Positions 10,729 to 26,952 of a DNA stretch of 26,959 nucleotides are shown piece after piece; within the stretch, counting starts at the first letter, position 1; each line of letters begins with the position of its first letter. The position numbers and the translations under genes were made by a program. Origin of the DNA: a virus. The stretch covers positions 1 through 26,959 of the IMG/VR virus record IMGVR_UViG_3300037264_000998; one strand, given 5' to 3'. The notes beneath the pieces were generated by a model, which saw nothing but the letters and a program-made list of their open reading frames with translations, made no database searches and had not been told where the DNA came from.

Positions 10729-11793
10729 TTATGGCCGAGGGCTACTCTCTGCTTCGTAGTTGCCGGTCACCTGGATGAACTCGGCCTTCCGCTGTAGCTC
10801 TTTGATAGAGCGGGCACCGCCGTAGGTCATGCCACTGCGTAAGCCGGCTAGTAGCCTTTGGATTAGGTTAATGGCGGGGCCGGACACGGGTGCCCAGAAA
10901 GCTTCACCCTCAGGGACGGTGCCATCCTTCGTAGCCCCAAAATATTCTTCTTGGAAGTCGGCGCTGGCCTGCCCTCGGTACTTGGCTTCATAGGGGCCAT
11001 TCCAACGATACAGTTCGTGGCTGCCGGGGGTATAAGTCAGCACCGTTCCTGGTGAGCCCGGTATTCCGCGTTTATGTGCCGCACTTTCATTGGTTAGCGC
11101 AAACAACTTGCCCAGCATAACAGAATCAGCCCCAGCAGCAAGCGCCTTAACGAGATCTGAGGAGCTGCGGATTCCCCCATCGGCGATAATAGGTACTAGG
11201 AGTTTCTTCCTGACCGCTGCGATATCTTGGATGGCGGTGAATTGTGGAACGCCGAATCCGGTGACCTTTCGGGTAGTACAGGCTGCCCCAGGCCCGATCC
11301 CGACCTTAACCGCCGTGGCCCCAGCATTAACAAGATCCCTATAGCCATCAGCAGTACAAACATTTCCAGCAATTATCTCTAGTTCTGTGTACGTGTTCTT
11401 CAAGTCCGAGATAGTCTTTAATAGGCGAGCATCATGGCCATGGGCTATGTCGAAGCACACCCCCGTTACATTGGTTTCTTCAAGGAGCTTAGTTAGTTCA
11501 ATTACGTCTCCGGTACGGATACCACAAGAAAGAAAAGAATTAGGAAAGGTATTGATCCACTGTACCTTCTGTTCAAACGTAGCAAACCTGTGAAAGATTG
11601 GCACGCTTCCTGCATCGGTTAGTACCTTCGCCAAGTCTGAACCAATAACCGAATCCATGTTGCTAGCAATAATAGGAATGTCCATAGGGACACCACGGGT
11701 CAGATAGGTAGATACGTTTGGGTCTACCCTCGATTCCACGTTGTTGAATACCGGGACGAGCGCTACGTCATCGAAAGTTAAGCCCTGTTTCAT
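10729..11793 (-). CDS. IMP dehydrogenase / GMP reductase family enzyme without CBS domains, 354 aa
   Basis: A TIM-barrel purine enzyme. [10 protein letters not shown] (5-14) opens the barrel; the catalytic loop [12 protein letters not shown] (164-175) holds nucleophile Cys172 and Thr174; [21 protein letters not shown] (203-223) and VMLG bind phosphate; [17 protein letters not shown] (317-333) and KAEFIQVTG close the fold. There is no CBS insertion. The flap contains KYRGQAS (271-277), nearer to IMPDH KSYRGMGS than to GMP reductase FYGMSS, and VPEGE follows as in IMPDH. At the IMPDH Arg-Tyr dyad position (DRYF in E. coli GuaB) this protein has EEYF (Glu283, Tyr284). It may therefore not be an ordinary IMPDH. 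ATG overlaps the upstream stop (ATGA), with GAGG 7 nt before it. Confidence 0.88.
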
Positions 11794-12334: not shown

Positions 12335-12987
12335 GGGAACTGCCCGACGAAGATGGCCTTGCAACCCTCGGCAATCTCCCGGTGCTCAAGCTGGGTGCCA
12401 GGCTCGGTGCGTAGTTGTAGGTAGTGAATCCACGAGCGAGCCGTGCCACTCATGTATAGGGTGGTGGCTGTGCCCAGGGGGAGGAGGAATCGGGCTTGCT
12501 CCTTGGCTATCCCCTTTGCCAGAGCTAAATCGTAAAGATCCACAGAATGGTTCTGAATAGTTCGTTGGGCATATTCAAACCAACCCTTATCTGCTTCCGA
12601 CATGTCATCAATACTATTCTGCCTATTTTTCACGTCCTGCCGTCGCGCCGGATAGATCTCAAACTCTGTGGCCTTGGCGTACCGCTGGCTAAACTCTTGG
12701 AAGGAGAAGCTGCGGTGACGTAGGATCTGCTGGGCAATGGCTCGGGATGTGTGAATTTCTAGTGTCATGTTAACTTGTTCAAAGATTGACCAATGCTTGT
12801 TGTGGATACAATAAGCAAGCAGCTTTGGAGCGGTTTCTTGATTCATTTTATTAGCCGGATTTGAAACTCTTGCAATATATGCAATAAGTTCTTCAGCCGA
12901 TAAATGCTCTAATTCTTCTGTTGGTTTTGTTAGAGAGATGAGTTTTACTTTAGGCTCCGGTTGGTTTGTATTCACAGGAATCTCCAT
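12304..12987 (-). CDS. thyX: Flavin-dependent thymidylate synthase ThyX, 227 aa
   Basis: Converts dUMP to dTMP with methylene-tetrahydrofolate, FAD and NADPH. The signature RHR-x7-S is intact at R90-H91-R92...S100 ([17 protein letters not shown]). The conserved family features ARVSNP (39-44), [13 protein letters not shown] (66-78), ARFLLPLGT and the C-terminal [15 protein letters not shown] are present. Length is normal. The ATG at 12987 overlaps the reductase by 38 nt and has only a distant GGAAG; a GTG at 12975 has GGAG 6 nt upstream and may be the true start, giving a protein four residues shorter. It follows the ribonucleotide reductase directly, so the pair would supply dNTPs and dTTP independently of host ThyA. 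Confidence 0.95.
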
Positions 12988-14926
12988 CGCAGAAAGTGGC
13001 TTCCTTGGCCTCGAAGGTTTTGAACTTCGGCTTCTTCAGTCCTGAACATAGCCTATCGAAGGTGTCTTTGTCAACCTCTTCATATGGTGCTTGAAGATAG
13101 GAATGATCGTTGAGCGGCAAGAAGCTGACCGACTTGAGCCTAGTCTCGAACATTTCCAAGGCTCTAGCTAGATCTTTGCTTTCTTCTGGCTTCACCGTAA
13201 CCGTGATACTGACACTGTTGTCGGCCCATTCAGACTGCATGAGCGCTGCCAGTTCAAGCTGCTCCCACATTGAAACGTCTGCCTTACGCTTCTGGAAGTT
13301 GGGCTCGTGGACAGGAAACTCTACGACCATCGTGTTCGCTGTCTCATACACATCCGGTTCTACACTATAGCCCGCTTCCCGCATCGTTTGCACGAGATCA
13401 GAGTTTTTCGAGATTCGTATTCGACGAACATAAAATTCTGAATGAGGATAGTGTATTCCAGGGGTCTTGCCGGGGAGCAAGGACACGGTCCCAGAAGGCT
13501 TAACTGTGGTGAGCTTGATGGACTTCCGTACACAGAGCCAATCGGAATACACTTGATCCCAGGTCTTTAGGTCTTGATAGCCCTTGTCACACCAGCGTAG
13601 ATGCTCTCGTAGACCGACCTGATTAATGTTCTCAACGATTCCACTTTGGCTAACTCCTATACGTCGGTTCTTCATCTGAACCTGATTCGTTAGATCGCAA
13701 TGCGTTGCTAAGAGTGTAACAGTTTTACAATAGAGGAAAGCATACTTAAGAGTACGAAGATAGTCGTCCAAGTTACTATGGTTGCTTGGGAAAGTTTCCA
13801 CGATATTGCAGAGTTCAGCGTGGTTGAGTGTAATCTCACCGCAAGGGTTAGTACCCATGACGTTGCGATCATGCTCATTACGAGGGTCTTTGAGCCTACC
13901 AAAATGACGAGCATTATCAAGCCACAAGTAACCAGGCTCTCCATTAACCATTGCTTGTTCAGCCAGCTTACTATAGTCATCCCCTACCTCCACGCATACA
14001 CTGTTGTTAGATGCCCACCGAGCAAACGCGGGGTCGGCTACTTTCTCTGGACTCTTGAGACTTAAAAACTCTTGGTCGCCGGGAGAGCCGAAGGCGATCT
14101 CGGCAGTCCGTCTAGTGCCGCCAGCTACGACACAGGCACCGGCAAAGTTCATAATGTCTACTATGAAGGTGCTGTCTACTGCCTGGTCCTCGTTAACATA
14201 GGACTGCATATATGCCTCTGTGCGCTCCAATAGGTGCTTTAGAGGGTCAGAGCCAGGGGCTATGCCTCCGAACGTCTTGATGGGGCTTCCAGCGGGTCGT
14301 ATGTTACTGTAGTCGAAGCTCTCGGGTAGGGTATTGGACCCGGAGAAGGCGTCTAGTACCCGCTTGAAGGCTTCGATCCAGCCCTCCCGGCTATCCTCAA
14401 CTACGTGGACATCCTTGGTTCGGCGAGGCTTCTTAAGGTAGAACTCGACTGAACTTCCTAAAGTATCGAACCCTACGCCCACCCCCATGAGACTCATATC
14501 CATGAGCCATACGAACGGGAAGCTGAGGTCGTCCTTGAGGTTCTTGGTGCTAATGAACCCGCAGTTGTACAATGGGGCAGAAGACTTCTCTAGTACGAAG
14601 TCTGTGCCCATGGCCCACAAGCCACGCCCAGGGGGGAGAAACTTGAAGTCCCACATGCGGCGATACATCTCTTGCGCACTCTGCTGTGCTCGCCTCTCAT
14701 CCCATGTAAGATGATGCTGCTTACAGTGCAGCTTCTGGATGAGGAAGGTACCTTCAACTACCCTCTGGATAGTCTCCCAGAACTCTTCGGTGCGACCGTT
14801 ACCCTTATCGCGGGCATACGAACGTTTAAATGTAAAAAATCCGAGCGGCCCCCACTGCGGCTGCTTACCTTTGTACTTGGCAATAAAATTGTCTGTCAGT
14901 TTGAAGTCTATGTCTTTAGAAATCAC
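12950..14926 (-). CDS. nrdJ: Adenosylcobalamin-dependent (class II) ribonucleotide reductase, 658 aa
   Basis: Reduces ribonucleotides to deoxyribonucleotides using a cobalamin-generated thiyl radical; monomeric class II type, as in Lactobacillus leichmannii RTPR. Radical Cys362 lies in NPCGEI (360-365) with Glu364; the disulfide pair is Cys122 (YNCGF) and Cys373 (ELCNIVE), and the 11-residue 362-373 spacing equals that of RTPR C408/C419. A C-terminal shuttle pair C646-x4-C651 (CDGDSC) is present. GTRRTAE (270-276), VKPSGT (475-480) and GIHYPHSEF are conserved. The distance C122-C362 is about 50 residues shorter than in RTPR (C119-C408), so an inserted/allosteric segment seems reduced. The start is GTG, overlapping the upstream stop as GTGA. 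No partner subunit is expected. Confidence 0.95.
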
Positions 14927-22325: not shown

Positions 22326-23171
22326 TTAGTTCCTCTTAGATTGGATGGTTGGGGGAGACAGGAGCACGTTGACCTTCGGTGAGGCTACTGTGAAGCCCTG
22401 CACTAGTGGTGCGCCTTGAGGAAGTACCGGTGCGCCTACGGTAGCGGGTCGGATGGCGGCGAGAACCGGTACTGGCTGCGCCTGCGGTGCCGGGGCATCT
22501 GATATGATCGCACCGAACTCCGCAACCAAGTCCTCATATGACTTCACGGGTGAGAACTGGTCTAGTGCGTGGAGCGTGAAGCTATCCAGATTGAGCCCCT
22601 CTTGCTGGATCGTATCAACGATGCTCGTTCGCTGGGGTACGACCTTTACCGTGTACTTGGTAGTGAGGCCAACACCTGCTCTATCTACGTTGACGTTCAT
22701 GCCTGTGTGAAAGTTGATGATATCCCCGTAGCCACCCCTTATGTCGGTGTCCAGGTCTAGGAGCGCCGTCTTCACGGTCGCTGGTATCTTCATAACCTTC
22801 ACGCCGTCCTTGATTGATACTTTGCCAGTTGGATCGCTGAGCACTAGAGCGTTGATGAGGAAGCGTGTCGAAGCCTTGAAGCTCTTCGCTGCCTCTTCGT
22901 TGTGTTGCGCCGCGAGACTCGCACCGTGCTCACAGATAGGGCATCGGCCCACTGAATTCTGTAAACAAACAAAGGAACGGTTCTTCCCTTGAATGAAATG
23001 CTCTACAACCTCGTGGAACCACACGCCCTTCTCACTGTAGGATGGCATTACGCGGATCGTAGTGCGGCCACCCTTAAGTGTGAGAGCGAAGTTACGGTTC
23101 TCACCGTCTCGGTCTGATTGTCGTGCGCGGTTTAGTGCTTCATCGTTTCGTTGGTATTCTACTAGAGCCAT
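22326..23171 (-). CDS. ssb: gp32-like single-stranded DNA-binding protein, 281 aa
   Basis: Covers ssDNA during replication and recombination. The N-terminal core has RVMPSYSEKGVWFHEVVEHF (40-59) and a zinc site H58...C69-x7-C77-x2-C80 (FVCLQNSVGRCPICEHG), close to the His-Cys-Cys-Cys arrangement of T4 gp32; the rest of the OB-fold follows to about residue 210. Residues about 225-281 are a Pro/Ala/Val-rich disordered linker, but the end is basic (QSKRN) instead of the acidic tip usual for SSB proteins. AAAGGA lies 8 nt before the ATG. It is preceded by the only sizeable noncoding gap in the block, so it may have its own promoter and be made in excess. Confidence 0.85.
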   Translation of the reverse strand: MALVEYQRNDEALNRARQSDRDGENRNFALTLKGGRTTIRVMPSYSEKGVWFHEVVEHFIQGKNRSFVCLQNSVGRCPICEHGASLAAQHNEEAAKSFKASTRFLINALVLSDPTGKVSIKDGVKVMKIPATVKTALLDLDTDIRGGYGDIINFHTGMNVNVDRAGVGLTTKYTVKVVPQRTSIVDTIQQEGLNLDSFTLHALDQFSPVKSYEDLVAEFGAIISDAPAPQAQPVPVLAAIRPATVGAPVLPQGAPLVQGFTVASPKVNVLLSPPTIQSKRN

Positions 23172-23277
23172 GTTGTGTTTCCTTTAAATATTTAATTGAT
23201 CGTGTTAAATGATCTATATTATCTTTGAAAAGTCCTAGTCCTGTGTTACATCTAATACATAGTAATCCTCTTATTTT
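23172..23277 (-). promoter_or_regulatory. 106-bp AT-rich gap upstream of ssb, candidate promoter/operator
   Basis: This is the only gap above 21 nt in the 23-kb minus-strand block. It holds a perfect 12-bp palindrome TTAAATATTTAA (23184-23195) next to the ssb ribosome site, a second inverted pair ATTTAA/TTAAAT around it, and a tandem AGGACT-AGGACT on the minus strand (23231-23242). Reading the minus strand, AT-rich hexamers such as TAATAT resemble a -10 box, but no good -35 is seen. No terminator hairpin with a U-run is evident. Confidence 0.35.
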
Positions 23278-23721
23278 TCACCTATCAGCTTTCATACTCT
23301 GGTTCTCGCGATACGCCAAAGCTCTAAGGCACTCTGATTTGTGAGTAAGAGCCGTCATACTCCAGCGAAGAGTCGCTGCGTCCTTCTCTGCTAGCAACAG
23401 CGCTTGCACTGTTGCTTGGTATTCTCCATTTAGGGTTATAGCATGGCCTACTTTAGCTTCCGTCGCTTTATCCCCCGATCTCGCAAATTCTGCTCGGACA
23501 GCCGAGTCCAGCACGGCTGCTAGCCTATCCTTCTCTGCATCCAGACGGCCCACCCGAAGTCTAGCTTCGGCTTCAAGCGTTCCATGCTCGAAGATGATAC
23601 GGCCCATATTACAAAGCTCCCGGTCAAGCTCGCTCTCGTCAATGCTAAACGCCTCTGGGTTCAGCTTGACTTCGAGGAACTGTCCGTCCCTTTCAATGTA
23701 TACTGTACGTTCTTCTGACAT
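23278..23721 (-). CDS. Helical protein, possible recombination mediator, 147 aa
   Basis: Residues about 35-145 are a long Ala/Glu/Arg/Leu heptad-like helical region (ELDRELCNMGRIIFEHG, LDAEKDRLAAVLDSAVRAEF) broken by GDKATEAKVGHAITLNGEY near 83-103. Helical proteins of this kind and size often sit beside SSB and RecA genes in phages and are sometimes called UvsY-like mediators, which help load recombinase on SSB-covered DNA. That name is suggested by context and length (T4 UvsY is 137 residues), not by a clear motif. GGGAG precedes the ATG at 6-8 nt. No membrane segment is present. Confidence 0.6.
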   Translation of the reverse strand: MSEERTVYIERDGQFLEVKLNPEAFSIDESELDRELCNMGRIIFEHGTLEAEARLRVGRLDAEKDRLAAVLDSAVRAEFARSGDKATEAKVGHAITLNGEYQATVQALLLAEKDAATLRWSMTALTHKSECLRALAYRENQSMKADR

Positions 23722-23723
23722 GA

Positions 23724-23894
23724 CTATCTCTCCCGTTCAGGTTGTGCTGCTAGCCGAAGCTCGCGATTGGCCTGTGCTAGGTCTGCCACTATCATGCAAA
23801 GAGCAGGTATGACAATGTAGTTAGTGTTCGACACTAGCCAGTTACCACTTTCAATAAGGTGGTAAGCTTCTTCTAGGGTCATTTGTGTTAGCAT
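23724..23894 (-). CDS. 56-aa protein of unknown function
   Basis: ATG at 23894 overlaps the HNH stop as TAATG; a longer in-frame start at 23912 lies inside the HNH gene. The sequence is an amphipathic helix (TQMTLEEAYHLIESG), a mildly hydrophobic middle (YIVIPALCMIVADLA, about 27-41) and a charged end (ERER). No family is recognised. Before the apparent HNH insertion this gene would have been coupled directly to the polymerase gene by the same TAATG junction, so it may be a polymerase-linked accessory protein. Confidence 0.6.
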   Translation of the reverse strand: MLTQMTLEEAYHLIESGNWLVSNTNYIVIPALCMIVADLAQANRELRLAAQPERER

Positions 23895-23906
23895 TAGTGT
23901 GCCGCC
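23891..23906. repeat. 16-bp direct repeat, left copy flanking the HNH gene
   Basis: GCATTAGTGTGCCGCC on the plus strand, identical to 24328-24343. On the minus strand it spells the last codons of the HNH gene, its TAA, and the ATG of the next gene. Bases just outside the repeat differ on both sides. Confidence 0.9.
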
Positions 23907-24331
23907 TTCCATTCCATTACGAATTTCTTCAAGTCTACCGCCAACTTAGCGGCCTGTTCTTCCGATTTGCAACCTTCACTGACGAAGGCTTGCCATTTAT
24001 TTCGCCCCTTGCTCCAGCTAACCCCAGGCGCTTCACTTTGAACTATAGCTCGGTTTCGTTTATTTTTCAAGTTCGAGCTAGGCGACACCCACCTGCAATT
24101 GGAAGGTTCGTAGTTACCGTTACAATCTATTCTATCCAGTTGTGTGCCTTCTGGTTTCTCCCCCATATCAGCAAGGAAGTTTTCAAAGGTCAACCAACTC
24201 TCACAAACTTTTATACCTCGTCCGCCGTAGGCAGCATAAGATACGTGCTTTTCATACCAGCATCTTTGCTTCATAGCATACCAGCACATATAGGTTTTAC
24301 TTTGTTTCCGCCCTGCGCAATGCTTGTGCAT
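23894..24331 (-). CDS. HNH homing-type endonuclease, 145 aa
   Basis: A free-standing endonuclease of the common phage HNH type. Conserved blocks are MKQRCWYEKHVSYAAYGGRGI (20-40), VCESWLTFENFLADMGEKP, and LDRIDCNGNYEPSNCRW (65-81), which carries the His-Me finger metal site; the C-terminal 45 residues (PGVSWSKGRNKWQAF) resemble an AP2-type DNA-binding repeat. Such genes spread by cutting homologous DNA that lacks them. Its start overlaps the polymerase stop (TAATG) and its stop overlaps the next gene start (TAATG). The last residues KAAH repeat the polymerase ending RAAH because of the 16-bp flanking duplication, which marks it as an inserted gene. Confidence 0.9.
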   Translation of the reverse strand: MHKHCAGRKQSKTYMCWYAMKQRCWYEKHVSYAAYGGRGIKVCESWLTFENFLADMGEKPEGTQLDRIDCNGNYEPSNCRWVSPSSNLKNKRNRAIVQSEAPGVSWSKGRNKWQAFVSEGCKSEEQAAKLAVDLKKFVMEWKAAH

Positions 24332-24343
24332 TAGTGTGCCGCC
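24328..24343. repeat. 16-bp direct repeat, right copy flanking the HNH gene
   Basis: Identical to 23891-23906, 437 bp away. On the minus strand it spells the last codons of the polymerase gene, TAA and the HNH ATG. It is the probable footprint of gene insertion. Confidence 0.9.
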
Positions 24344-26952
24344 CTCTCTGCTTCTGCCCAGGTATTACCCCATCCGCTATTGATAGGTAGAACCATTCCA
24401 CCTAGCTCAGGGATTGGGCGCTGTGCAACCTTCTTGAATTCAACATCGAACCATTCCACGTAGTCTTTATGTATGCCGTAAGATATAGAATCATGAACGG
24501 AACAAATCAAACGAACTTTATCAGGTCCGATACCTAAGCCCTCTAGACCCTCACGCATAATGTTCATCGTGCGAAACGAAACTGCTCCAGCGGGGCTTTG
24601 GATTGAGACGTTAGTTGCTGATCGCTCCGCTTCGGCACGGCGATACTGTTCCTTATGATTCAGGTCGGGTATAAAGATTTCCCGTCCGAAGATCGTCACT
24701 ACCTTACTACCACGCCCGCGAGCAATGTCCGGGGTCAAGCTGAGGTACTCGTCGATCTTTGGGTAGCGCATCCGATAGTTGCGCACGAGTCCGTAGGCCA
24801 TCTCTTCACCGATAAGCTTGCGCTCCTTGGTCTTAATGTCCTCGTACTCTAGCTTGGCTAGGCTCGCGCCCTCTGAGCCGTAGATGATACCGAAGTTCAT
24901 AGGCTTACCTATAGCCCCTCGGTTATAGTCGCTAATTTCTGACGGGTCGCACATGAGCGCCGCCGCAGCCGTGAATCTGTGTACGTCGCCATCGGGGTCG
25001 CTAAGGACCTTGAGGAATTCTTCCTCCCCTGTAAGCTGAGCGAACACTCGCAATTCAATTTGTGAATAGTCCGCGTAGTAGTAGACGAATCCCTCTTCTT
25101 CATCGACCATATCCCGCATTACCAGCTTGCCAGCCTTCACGTCGTCCTCTTTGGACTTCGGAATCTGGTGCAAGAAGCTACAGGTTAGGCGAGCCGAAAT
25201 AGAACCGGCCATGTTGAAACCGTAGCGAATACGTCCGTCCGTGCCTACTTCGTTCATGGCGTTGTCAACGTAGGTGCTCTTAAACTTCTGTCGGTTGCGG
25301 TACTTGATGATCTTTCTGGCCAGCGGAACGTCTTCTGGGTCCAGCTTCATTAGAGTGTTCTTGTTAGTAGAGTAGCCCTTGACTGCCCTGACGTTGAGGA
25401 TCTCCTCACCAAACCCTAGCTCTCGAAGCGCCTTGGCTACCTGAGCATGGCTACTAGGATTGAAGTCCGGATTGGTGACAGCACGGCAGTCTACCATGAT
25501 CTCTTCCATCTCGTTGTCGAAGCTGACCCCAAGGGACTTGACGTTCTCAATGTTAAGGTGGTTGCCGTTGTACTCTGCCTCAGCCAACGTGTACAATAGG
25601 GGCATCGACTCCTCGGTGTACAGCTTCATGAGATTGGCCTTTCGGGCAATGTCAGGGTAGTACACATCAAGCAGACGATAGGTTAGTTCGGCGTCCGTGG
25701 CGCCATAGGGCCATAGCTTATCATCGGGTACGTTGTCGTAACCCATGATGAGCTTTCGACCATGCCCTACGATATCTCGAACCGGCTTCTCGTAGTTGCC
25801 ACAGAAGAACTCCCCATCGGCTAGCTCTTTGAGTCCGTGCGGCGGGGTAACGTCTAGTAGATGGTGCATAATCTGGGTATCCCAGAGCCATCCCTTGACC
25901 CTGATGCCACAATGGCGGCGCAGGACGTTAATATCATACTTTATATTATGGGCGCACTTGGCGATCTTCTCGTCCTCAAAGATTTCTTTGAGCTTCTCGT
26001 TTATCGCTTTTCGATCACCGTTTATCCAGGTAGGGGTGAGTTTGAACCCGAACTCCACCGTTGGATCGTGCTTATAGAACGGTATAACCCATGTCTTTCC
26101 TACGCCACACGAGAGTTGTAGCAGAATACACGGTGAGGACATGAATTTGAGGTCCGGAGACTCTGTATCAAAGGCAAAGACACCGTGTAGTTTTATTTGG
26201 GACGTAACCTTGGCTAATTCCTCAATAGAATCAACTACTTGGTACTGTGCGTTATAAAACTTATTAACTATGATTTTTCCATCTGCCAATAATGATCGAG
26301 CCTTGTTCAAATCCTCCTGCATTAGGCTCTTGATCTTGACGTTACCCGTCGCGAGGTACTGCTTCGGATGGTAGACTGGCATGACCCGGAATTCTAGCTC
26401 CTCTTTCCAATGAGGATACTTCATGTCAAACGCGGTGCCGTGTAGCTGTGTGATGCCTCCCTCGCCGTGGAGATTGAATACCTTGAGAGCCTCTGAGCCT
26501 AGAAGAATTATCAGGCGAGGCTCGTACTTGAACAGCTCATACTCTAGGTGCTGACGACATACTGCGTACTCGCTGGCTGCTGCTTTCCTGTTTGGTGGCG
26601 CACATTTAGCGTGGCAAGTGATGTAAGTTTTGTCTGGGTCGAACTCCGAGTTGGTCAGAAGCCCTATCATTATCTCCCGTGCGTCGCCCCACAACGGGAA
26701 GCCTGCCTTGTCGCCGTCTCGGGCGGGGAAGTCGCTCACCACAAAAGTATCGAAGTTGCGGGGCTTGCTCGGGTCTCCTCGCCGACCGTCGATAAGCTCG
26801 CGTAGCGAGCAACCCATAAGCTGGGCGTTGCGGGTGTACTTCCAACCCTTGTCGCTCACTATAGTAGGGAGCTGGCAAAGTGGCTTGCCACTCTCGGCGG
26901 GGTCGCAGTTATACCATTCCTTATAGAGCGGTAGTTCTAGTTCTTCGGCCAT
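24331..26952 (-). CDS. Uracil-DNA-glycosylase-like domain fused to family A DNA polymerase, 873 aa
   Basis: The replicative polymerase. Residues 1-215 resemble family 4 UDG: cysteines C16, C26, C117 (CAPPNRKA) and C132 (CRQHLEYEL) fit an Fe-S site, and VYHPKQYL (193-200) is the His motif, but motif 1 (GEAPG in the family) reads SDFPA at 73-77. Residues about 240-435 are the 3'-5' exonuclease: D262/E264 (FDTES), D340 (AHNIKYD), Y416/D420 (YGATD). The polymerase follows: motif A DYSQIELR with D628; O-helix K683, F687, Y691; motif C SVHDS with H820, D821. The O-helix Arg678 lies five residues before Lys683 instead of four as in E. coli Pol I. The start ATG is 8 bases from the window edge. Confidence 0.93.
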   Translation of the reverse strand: MAEELELPLYKEWYNCDPAESGKPLCQLPTIVSDKGWKYTRNAQLMGCSLRELIDGRRGDPSKPRNFDTFVVSDFPARDGDKAGFPLWGDAREIMIGLLTNSEFDPDKTYITCHAKCAPPNRKAAASEYAVCRQHLEYELFKYEPRLIILLGSEALKVFNLHGEGGITQLHGTAFDMKYPHWKEELEFRVMPVYHPKQYLATGNVKIKSLMQEDLNKARSLLADGKIIVNKFYNAQYQVVDSIEELAKVTSQIKLHGVFAFDTESPDLKFMSSPCILLQLSCGVGKTWVIPFYKHDPTVEFGFKLTPTWINGDRKAINEKLKEIFEDEKIAKCAHNIKYDINVLRRHCGIRVKGWLWDTQIMHHLLDVTPPHGLKELADGEFFCGNYEKPVRDIVGHGRKLIMGYDNVPDDKLWPYGATDAELTYRLLDVYYPDIARKANLMKLYTEESMPLLYTLAEAEYNGNHLNIENVKSLGVSFDNEMEEIMVDCRAVTNPDFNPSSHAQVAKALRELGFGEEILNVRAVKGYSTNKNTLMKLDPEDVPLARKIIKYRNRQKFKSTYVDNAMNEVGTDGRIRYGFNMAGSISARLTCSFLHQIPKSKEDDVKAGKLVMRDMVDEEEGFVYYYADYSQIELRVFAQLTGEEEFLKVLSDPDGDVHRFTAAAALMCDPSEISDYNRGAIGKPMNFGIIYGSEGASLAKLEYEDIKTKERKLIGEEMAYGLVRNYRMRYPKIDEYLSLTPDIARGRGSKVVTIFGREIFIPDLNHKEQYRRAEAERSATNVSIQSPAGAVSFRTMNIMREGLEGLGIGPDKVRLICSVHDSISYGIHKDYVEWFDVEFKKVAQRPIPELGGMVLPINSGWGNTWAEAERAAH

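Follow-up and report, generated by a model that had tools for sequence, protein, structure and literature searches.

An HNH endonuclease gene in a variable slot behind a phage DNA polymerase gene is flanked by a duplicated stop/start junction and shows sequence patterns expected of homing

The free-standing HNH gene mobE of phage T4 lies between nrdA and nrdB with a UAAUG(A) start/stop overlap for which translational coupling has been proposed (PMC2988022). During the intronless homing of SegF and SegG in the same phage, the endonuclease gene is inherited together with its flanking tracts (PMC2988022, PMC2993671), and illegitimate repair at microhomologies has been documented for T4 intron homing (PMC2988022). 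Free-standing HNN-AP2 endonuclease genes are scattered between the genes of the Xanthomonas phages Xp10, OP1 and Xop411 (PMC2248197), and HNH insertions in Cluster J mycobacteriophages include Courthouse 46 and Omega 51 (PMC3706429). How such free-standing genes first enter packed phage genomes while leaving their neighbours unbroken is poorly documented, and in the open-access literature we found no description of a duplicated stop/start junction or a target-site duplication around phage homing genes.

The window analyzed here is the whole 26,959-nucleotide stretch of the viral record IMGVR_UViG_3300037264_000998. On its minus strand, ORF and Pfam analysis identified a family A DNA polymerase gene (24331-26952; 873 aa, with a UDG-like N-terminus and the C-terminal end AERAAH*), which is followed by an HNH endonuclease gene (23894-24331; 145 aa, ending in EWKAAH*), a 56-aa orphan ORF (23724-23894) and a 147-aa gene of unassigned function (23278-23721) that comparison with relatives showed to be conserved; the genes for a gp32-like SSB and then a RecA-like protein come next. 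The stop and start codons overlap as TAATG both between polymerase and HNH gene and between HNH gene and 56-aa ORF. Among the PHROGs HNH families, the best matches of the HNH protein were phrog_374 (E = 2.5e-40) and phrog_3377 (4.3e-38), both annotated as HNH endonuclease. The 145-aa protein, for which Pfam gave no match, appears to resemble the HNN-AP2 endonucleases, and its GVSWSKGRNKWQ block is common to a protein at locus L006 (locus labels are ours) whose longer C-terminus looks AP2-like. The HNH gene is intergenic, located between two intact ORFs, and a group I intron as its host was rejected after Rfam returned no match within 23000-25000.

Several features of the surrounding sequence were recorded alongside. 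The UDG-like part of the polymerase is a uracil-DNA-glycosylase superfamily domain (residues 68-204) placed ahead of the exonuclease, and the 3' end of its gene holds a 16-nt direct repeat with one mismatch (24390-24405 and 24448-24463, 58 bp apart) that is also found in the related contig L005 and is absent from L004. An A/T-rich geneless stretch of 106 nt (23172-23277) separates the 147-aa gene from the SSB gene in the window, whereas these two genes nearly abut in L005. Elsewhere in the window, a single phage gene (6399-9623) encodes a 1074-aa protein with glycosyltransferase domains of both family 2 and group 1, and genes for an IMP dehydrogenase/GMP reductase-like protein (10729-11793) and a B12-dependent ribonucleotide reductase (12950-14926) share one strand.

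A preliminary description of this DNA had reported an identical 16-bp sequence on either side of the HNH gene, 437 bp apart, and both the repeat and the roles assigned to its copies were confirmed. The direct repeat reads GCATTAGTGTGCCGCC on the plus strand and GGCGGCACACTAATGC on the coding minus strand. Copy 1 (24328-24343) covers the polymerase end and stop (AERAAH*) and overlaps the HNH start, while copy 2 (23891-23906) covers the HNH end and stop (EWKAAH*) and overlaps the start of the 56-aa ORF; the start-to-start distance is 437 bp. Markov shuffles gave an expectation of 0.005 such 16-bp repeats within 600 bp per window, and the similarity stretches to 18 of 19 positions with a single mismatch. 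Among eight related records, the 11-bp core GCACACTAATG was confined to the ends of polymerase genes and the tails of HNH genes, and the reversed control pattern had zero matches. The sixteenth matching base, a C, is coincidental, because L004 has an A directly after its second copy, and the repeat with evolutionary meaning is about 14-15 bp long. As in a transposon target-site duplication, the gene lies between direct repeats of 14-16 bp, of which relatives with an empty site have a single copy; neither terminal inverted repeats nor a transposase were found, with no inverted repeats in 23500-24900, and the sole gene between the two copies encodes the HNH nuclease.

To place the junction in context, six relatives were compared with the window, four identified through the polymerase (L002-L005, 87-93% identity) and two through the 147-aa gene (L088 and L090). 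The resulting set of seven genomes consists entirely of metagenomic contigs, mostly fragments. Scanning viral contigs by alignment added no further genomes with a related polymerase, nor did a DNA scan for degenerate junctions; bacterial genomes yielded none, and the polymerases of named phages were only about 25% identical. In L005 and the distant outgroup L088 the slot is empty, the polymerase gene running through GCACACTAATG directly into the 147-aa gene. L004 carries the HNH gene alone, with the duplicated tail (GGGAGCACACTAATG) and without the 56-aa gene, while the window holds both HNH gene and 56-aa ORF. In L003 (4355-4775) a TGA following codon 105 cuts the HNH gene short, and the truncated gene is joined to the remnant of another slot ORF. 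The HNH gene is absent from L002, whose slot contains two unrelated small ORFs, and from L090, whose slot contains three ORFs including two tandem paralogues. The polymerase/147-aa slot is thus a hot spot that accommodates an HNH gene, a truncated HNH gene or unrelated small genes. Two details of its contents were noted separately: the slot-ORF remnant in L003 ends in ITEEI* with a TAATG adjoining the 147-aa gene, and the paralogues in L090 (1504-2006; MATKKAKV.../MATKKEKV...) are joined by TAATG, a gene duplication inside the slot.

These relatives, with and without the HNH gene at the same slot, support the earlier view that it is an added, mobile gene and that the duplication rebuilds the stop/start overlap on both of its sides. 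The proposed uninterrupted junction was borne out in part. A single GCACACTAATG does mark the fused junction of HNH-less relatives, but the empty sites of L005 and L088 show that the downstream partner is the 147-aa gene; a polymerase-TAATG-56-aa arrangement occurred in no relative. Since no relative carries the 56-aa gene at all, it was rejected as the original polymerase neighbour, and the duplication is independent of it because L004 has the HNH gene and the duplicated tail without the 56-aa ORF. The clean coupling of three genes, which had been considered unusual, is present, but TAATG overlaps are nothing out of the ordinary for genes inserted here (L002 and L090) and are known for T4 mobE.

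The two copies of the junction do not appear to be of equal age. Copy 1, the polymerase tail, is ancestral, because it is kept in relatives with and without the HNH gene, the distant L088 included. Copy 2 is best read as a captured polymerase end, because the HNH relatives L023 and G006, which share the same short C-terminus, end at or just before the point where KAAH* starts in the window protein and lack the KAAH tail. Members of the HNH-AP2 family sometimes end in or near (T/A)H (TH at the end in L219, TH near the end in L259), and part of the likeness between HNH tail and polymerase end may predate the insertion as a microhomology guiding the join. A donor genome for the founding insertion was not found.

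The sequence divergence around the slot points to horizontal movement of the HNH gene. Window and L003 differ at only 7 of 316 HNH positions (dS 0.033) compared to 59 of 300 positions in the polymerase gene just upstream (Fisher p=3e-13); polymerase dS values were 1.05-1.38. L003 and L004 are 99-100% identical in the polymerase gene up to about -300, with 10 mismatches in 1200 positions, followed by 67/300 and then 58/316 mismatches in the tract that holds the HNH gene, which is mostly 66-84% identical, before identity returns to 100% in the SSB gene. Window and L005 have one mismatch in 130 positions left of the slot and, after four changes in the first codons, 101 identical nt at the start of the 147-aa gene, while farther out both flanks diverge by about 25%. 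L005-like polymerase sequence gives way to L003-like HNH sequence within the duplicated junction, at a seam between -9 and the HNH start. The HNH gene itself is under strong purifying selection (dN/dS 0.05 between window and L004). The dS contrast and the bounded L003/L004 tract indicate horizontal spread accompanied by flanking co-conversion, to which general mosaicism could still contribute. Homing with co-conversion would be expected to leave exchange patterns of this kind, which plain phage recombination could mimic, and in this respect the gene behaves like a free-standing homing endonuclease gene.

Taken as a whole, the comparison probably reflects a free-standing, homing-type HNH gene that entered a variable slot by a founding join through short homology or template switching and has spread by tract exchange. 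The comparison shows the ancestral junction to be polymerase-GCACACTAATG-147-aa gene. The HNH gene was added there along with a duplicate of the final ~14 bp of the polymerase gene; this duplicate became the HNH C-terminus and stop and restored a TAATG at which the following gene starts. The founding join may have connected the end of the HNH gene to the end of the polymerase gene across the stop/start overlap, by short-homology (illegitimate) repair or template switching, and selection would have kept a join that recopied the overlap because only such a join left all genes intact and coupled. The gene has since moved between diverged relatives through exchange of the tracts around the slot. 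The enzyme would nick or cut HNH-less polymerase/147-aa alleles, and repair from an HNH-carrying phage would copy the gene into the cut allele. The 56-aa gene is a separate addition. Cleavage site, founding event and origin of the first duplication are inferred.

Other explanations were weighed against this course of events. Ordinary phage mosaicism could have moved the HNH gene with no role for its enzyme in the spread, given that the polymerase segments are mosaics of varying identity in all of these phages and that general recombination could yield exchange tracts without endonuclease action; the clean L003/L004 exchange tract and the short window/L005 island of identity are both centred on the slot, however, and we consider this explanation unlikely. 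That the HNH gene is ancestral and the empty sites are traceless losses is very unlikely. Recombination between the two direct repeats would permit such a clean deletion and L003 carries a decaying HNH gene, but L005 and the distant outgroup L088 are empty, L002 and L090 hold unrelated genes instead, and the HNH similarity between window and L003 is far too high for vertical descent with the polymerase. Convergence of the two ends without any duplication, under selection for TAATG coupling and an alanine-histidine tail, is already disfavoured and appears highly improbable: these genomes have many TAATG and ATGA overlaps and some HNH family members end in TH, yet ten more bases upstream of TAATG are identical in the window and the 11-bp core was found at no other gene junction in the eight records.

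A true target-site duplication, in which the HNH enzyme nicks the strands ~14 bp apart and ectopic joining is followed by overhang fill-in as in transposition, would account for a 14-16 bp direct repeat exactly at both HNH ends. Many homing enzymes of the HNH type, such as MobA and MobE, act as nickases (PMC2988022), and an early scan revealed comparable duplications located at junctions in three unrelated HNH loci (L009, L035 and L039). Against this, the lengths of the duplications vary between loci, T4 mobE has none, and HNH genes show no clear excess of them. That early scan, of 81 loci, had indicated an apparent enrichment at HNH genes, but in a larger test with 1286 control genes taken from the same loci, duplications scoring 12 or more were found at 7 of 238 HNH genes and 16 of 1286 control genes (2.9% vs 1.2%, p=0.054), a comparison that is slightly conservative because one of the control entries is the window's own repeat read in antisense. 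At higher scores the HNH excess was gone, and the longest cases, up to 31 bp, were in control genes. We therefore rejected junction duplication as a proven HNH rule, control genes and the larger test having reduced the enrichment to marginal, and regard a target-site duplication at this locus as decidedly unlikely. Equally doubtful is the broader proposition that some phage HNH genes insert at new junctions while duplicating the 14-30 bp overlap of stop, ribosome site and start, one conceivable route being offset nicking by the HNH enzyme itself and then fill-in, with window/L004, L039, L035 and L009 as four independent products; if true, such a duplication would let both neighbours and the newcomer be translated at once. 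No empty sites were found for the duplicated HNH loci L009 and L039. Because the HNH excess is marginal and absent at higher scores, we take the duplication to be an infrequent trace left by gene additions in compact phage genomes in general; it is not a proven HNH signature and does not prove a staggered cut.

The control genes also provided individual cases. At L041, a perfect 31-bp direct repeat (381-411 and 1275-1305; GCCGCCCACGGCATTAAGGAGTAAGACATGA) that includes ribosome site and start flanks an 891-nt non-HNH gene of unassigned function, a stronger junction duplication than that of the HNH gene. Junction-type direct repeats with a score of 22 surround non-HNH phage genes at L014 (1802-1826/2930-2954) and L173 (2192-2219/2584-2611).

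The value of the locus is that one junction is available without an insert, with the HNH gene, with a decayed copy of it and with other genes in its place, and that the seam has been narrowed to about ten bases. Relatives with and without the HNH gene illustrate how neatly it entered and how it spreads while the stop/start overlaps with its two neighbours are preserved. Co-inheritance of flanking tracts is shared with SegF and SegG, which are GIY-YIG enzymes whose cleavage was shown experimentally, whereas the window HNH enzyme is known from sequence alone. The HNN-AP2 genes of Xp10, OP1 and Xop411 are of the same broad kind, present or absent in close relatives and with degenerate copies, but the study describing them detected no conserved flanks and proposed a transfer independent of sequence (PMC2248197), whereas the flank of the window gene is a duplicated junction. 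In Cluster J mycobacteriophages, too, comparison with an empty relative revealed a precise insertion at the boundary between genes, and one site is used by unrelated HNH genes; a junction duplication is unreported there, and Omega 51 came with a 35-bp loss (PMC3706429). As with the window gene, T4 mobE directly follows a nucleotide-metabolism gene and its start overlaps the upstream stop, a likeness of gene position and junction sequence. The gene type is therefore familiar and UAAUG coupling is already known from mobE, but mobE has no second junction copy, its own 3' end, on inspection of the sequence, lacking a copy of the nrdA end.
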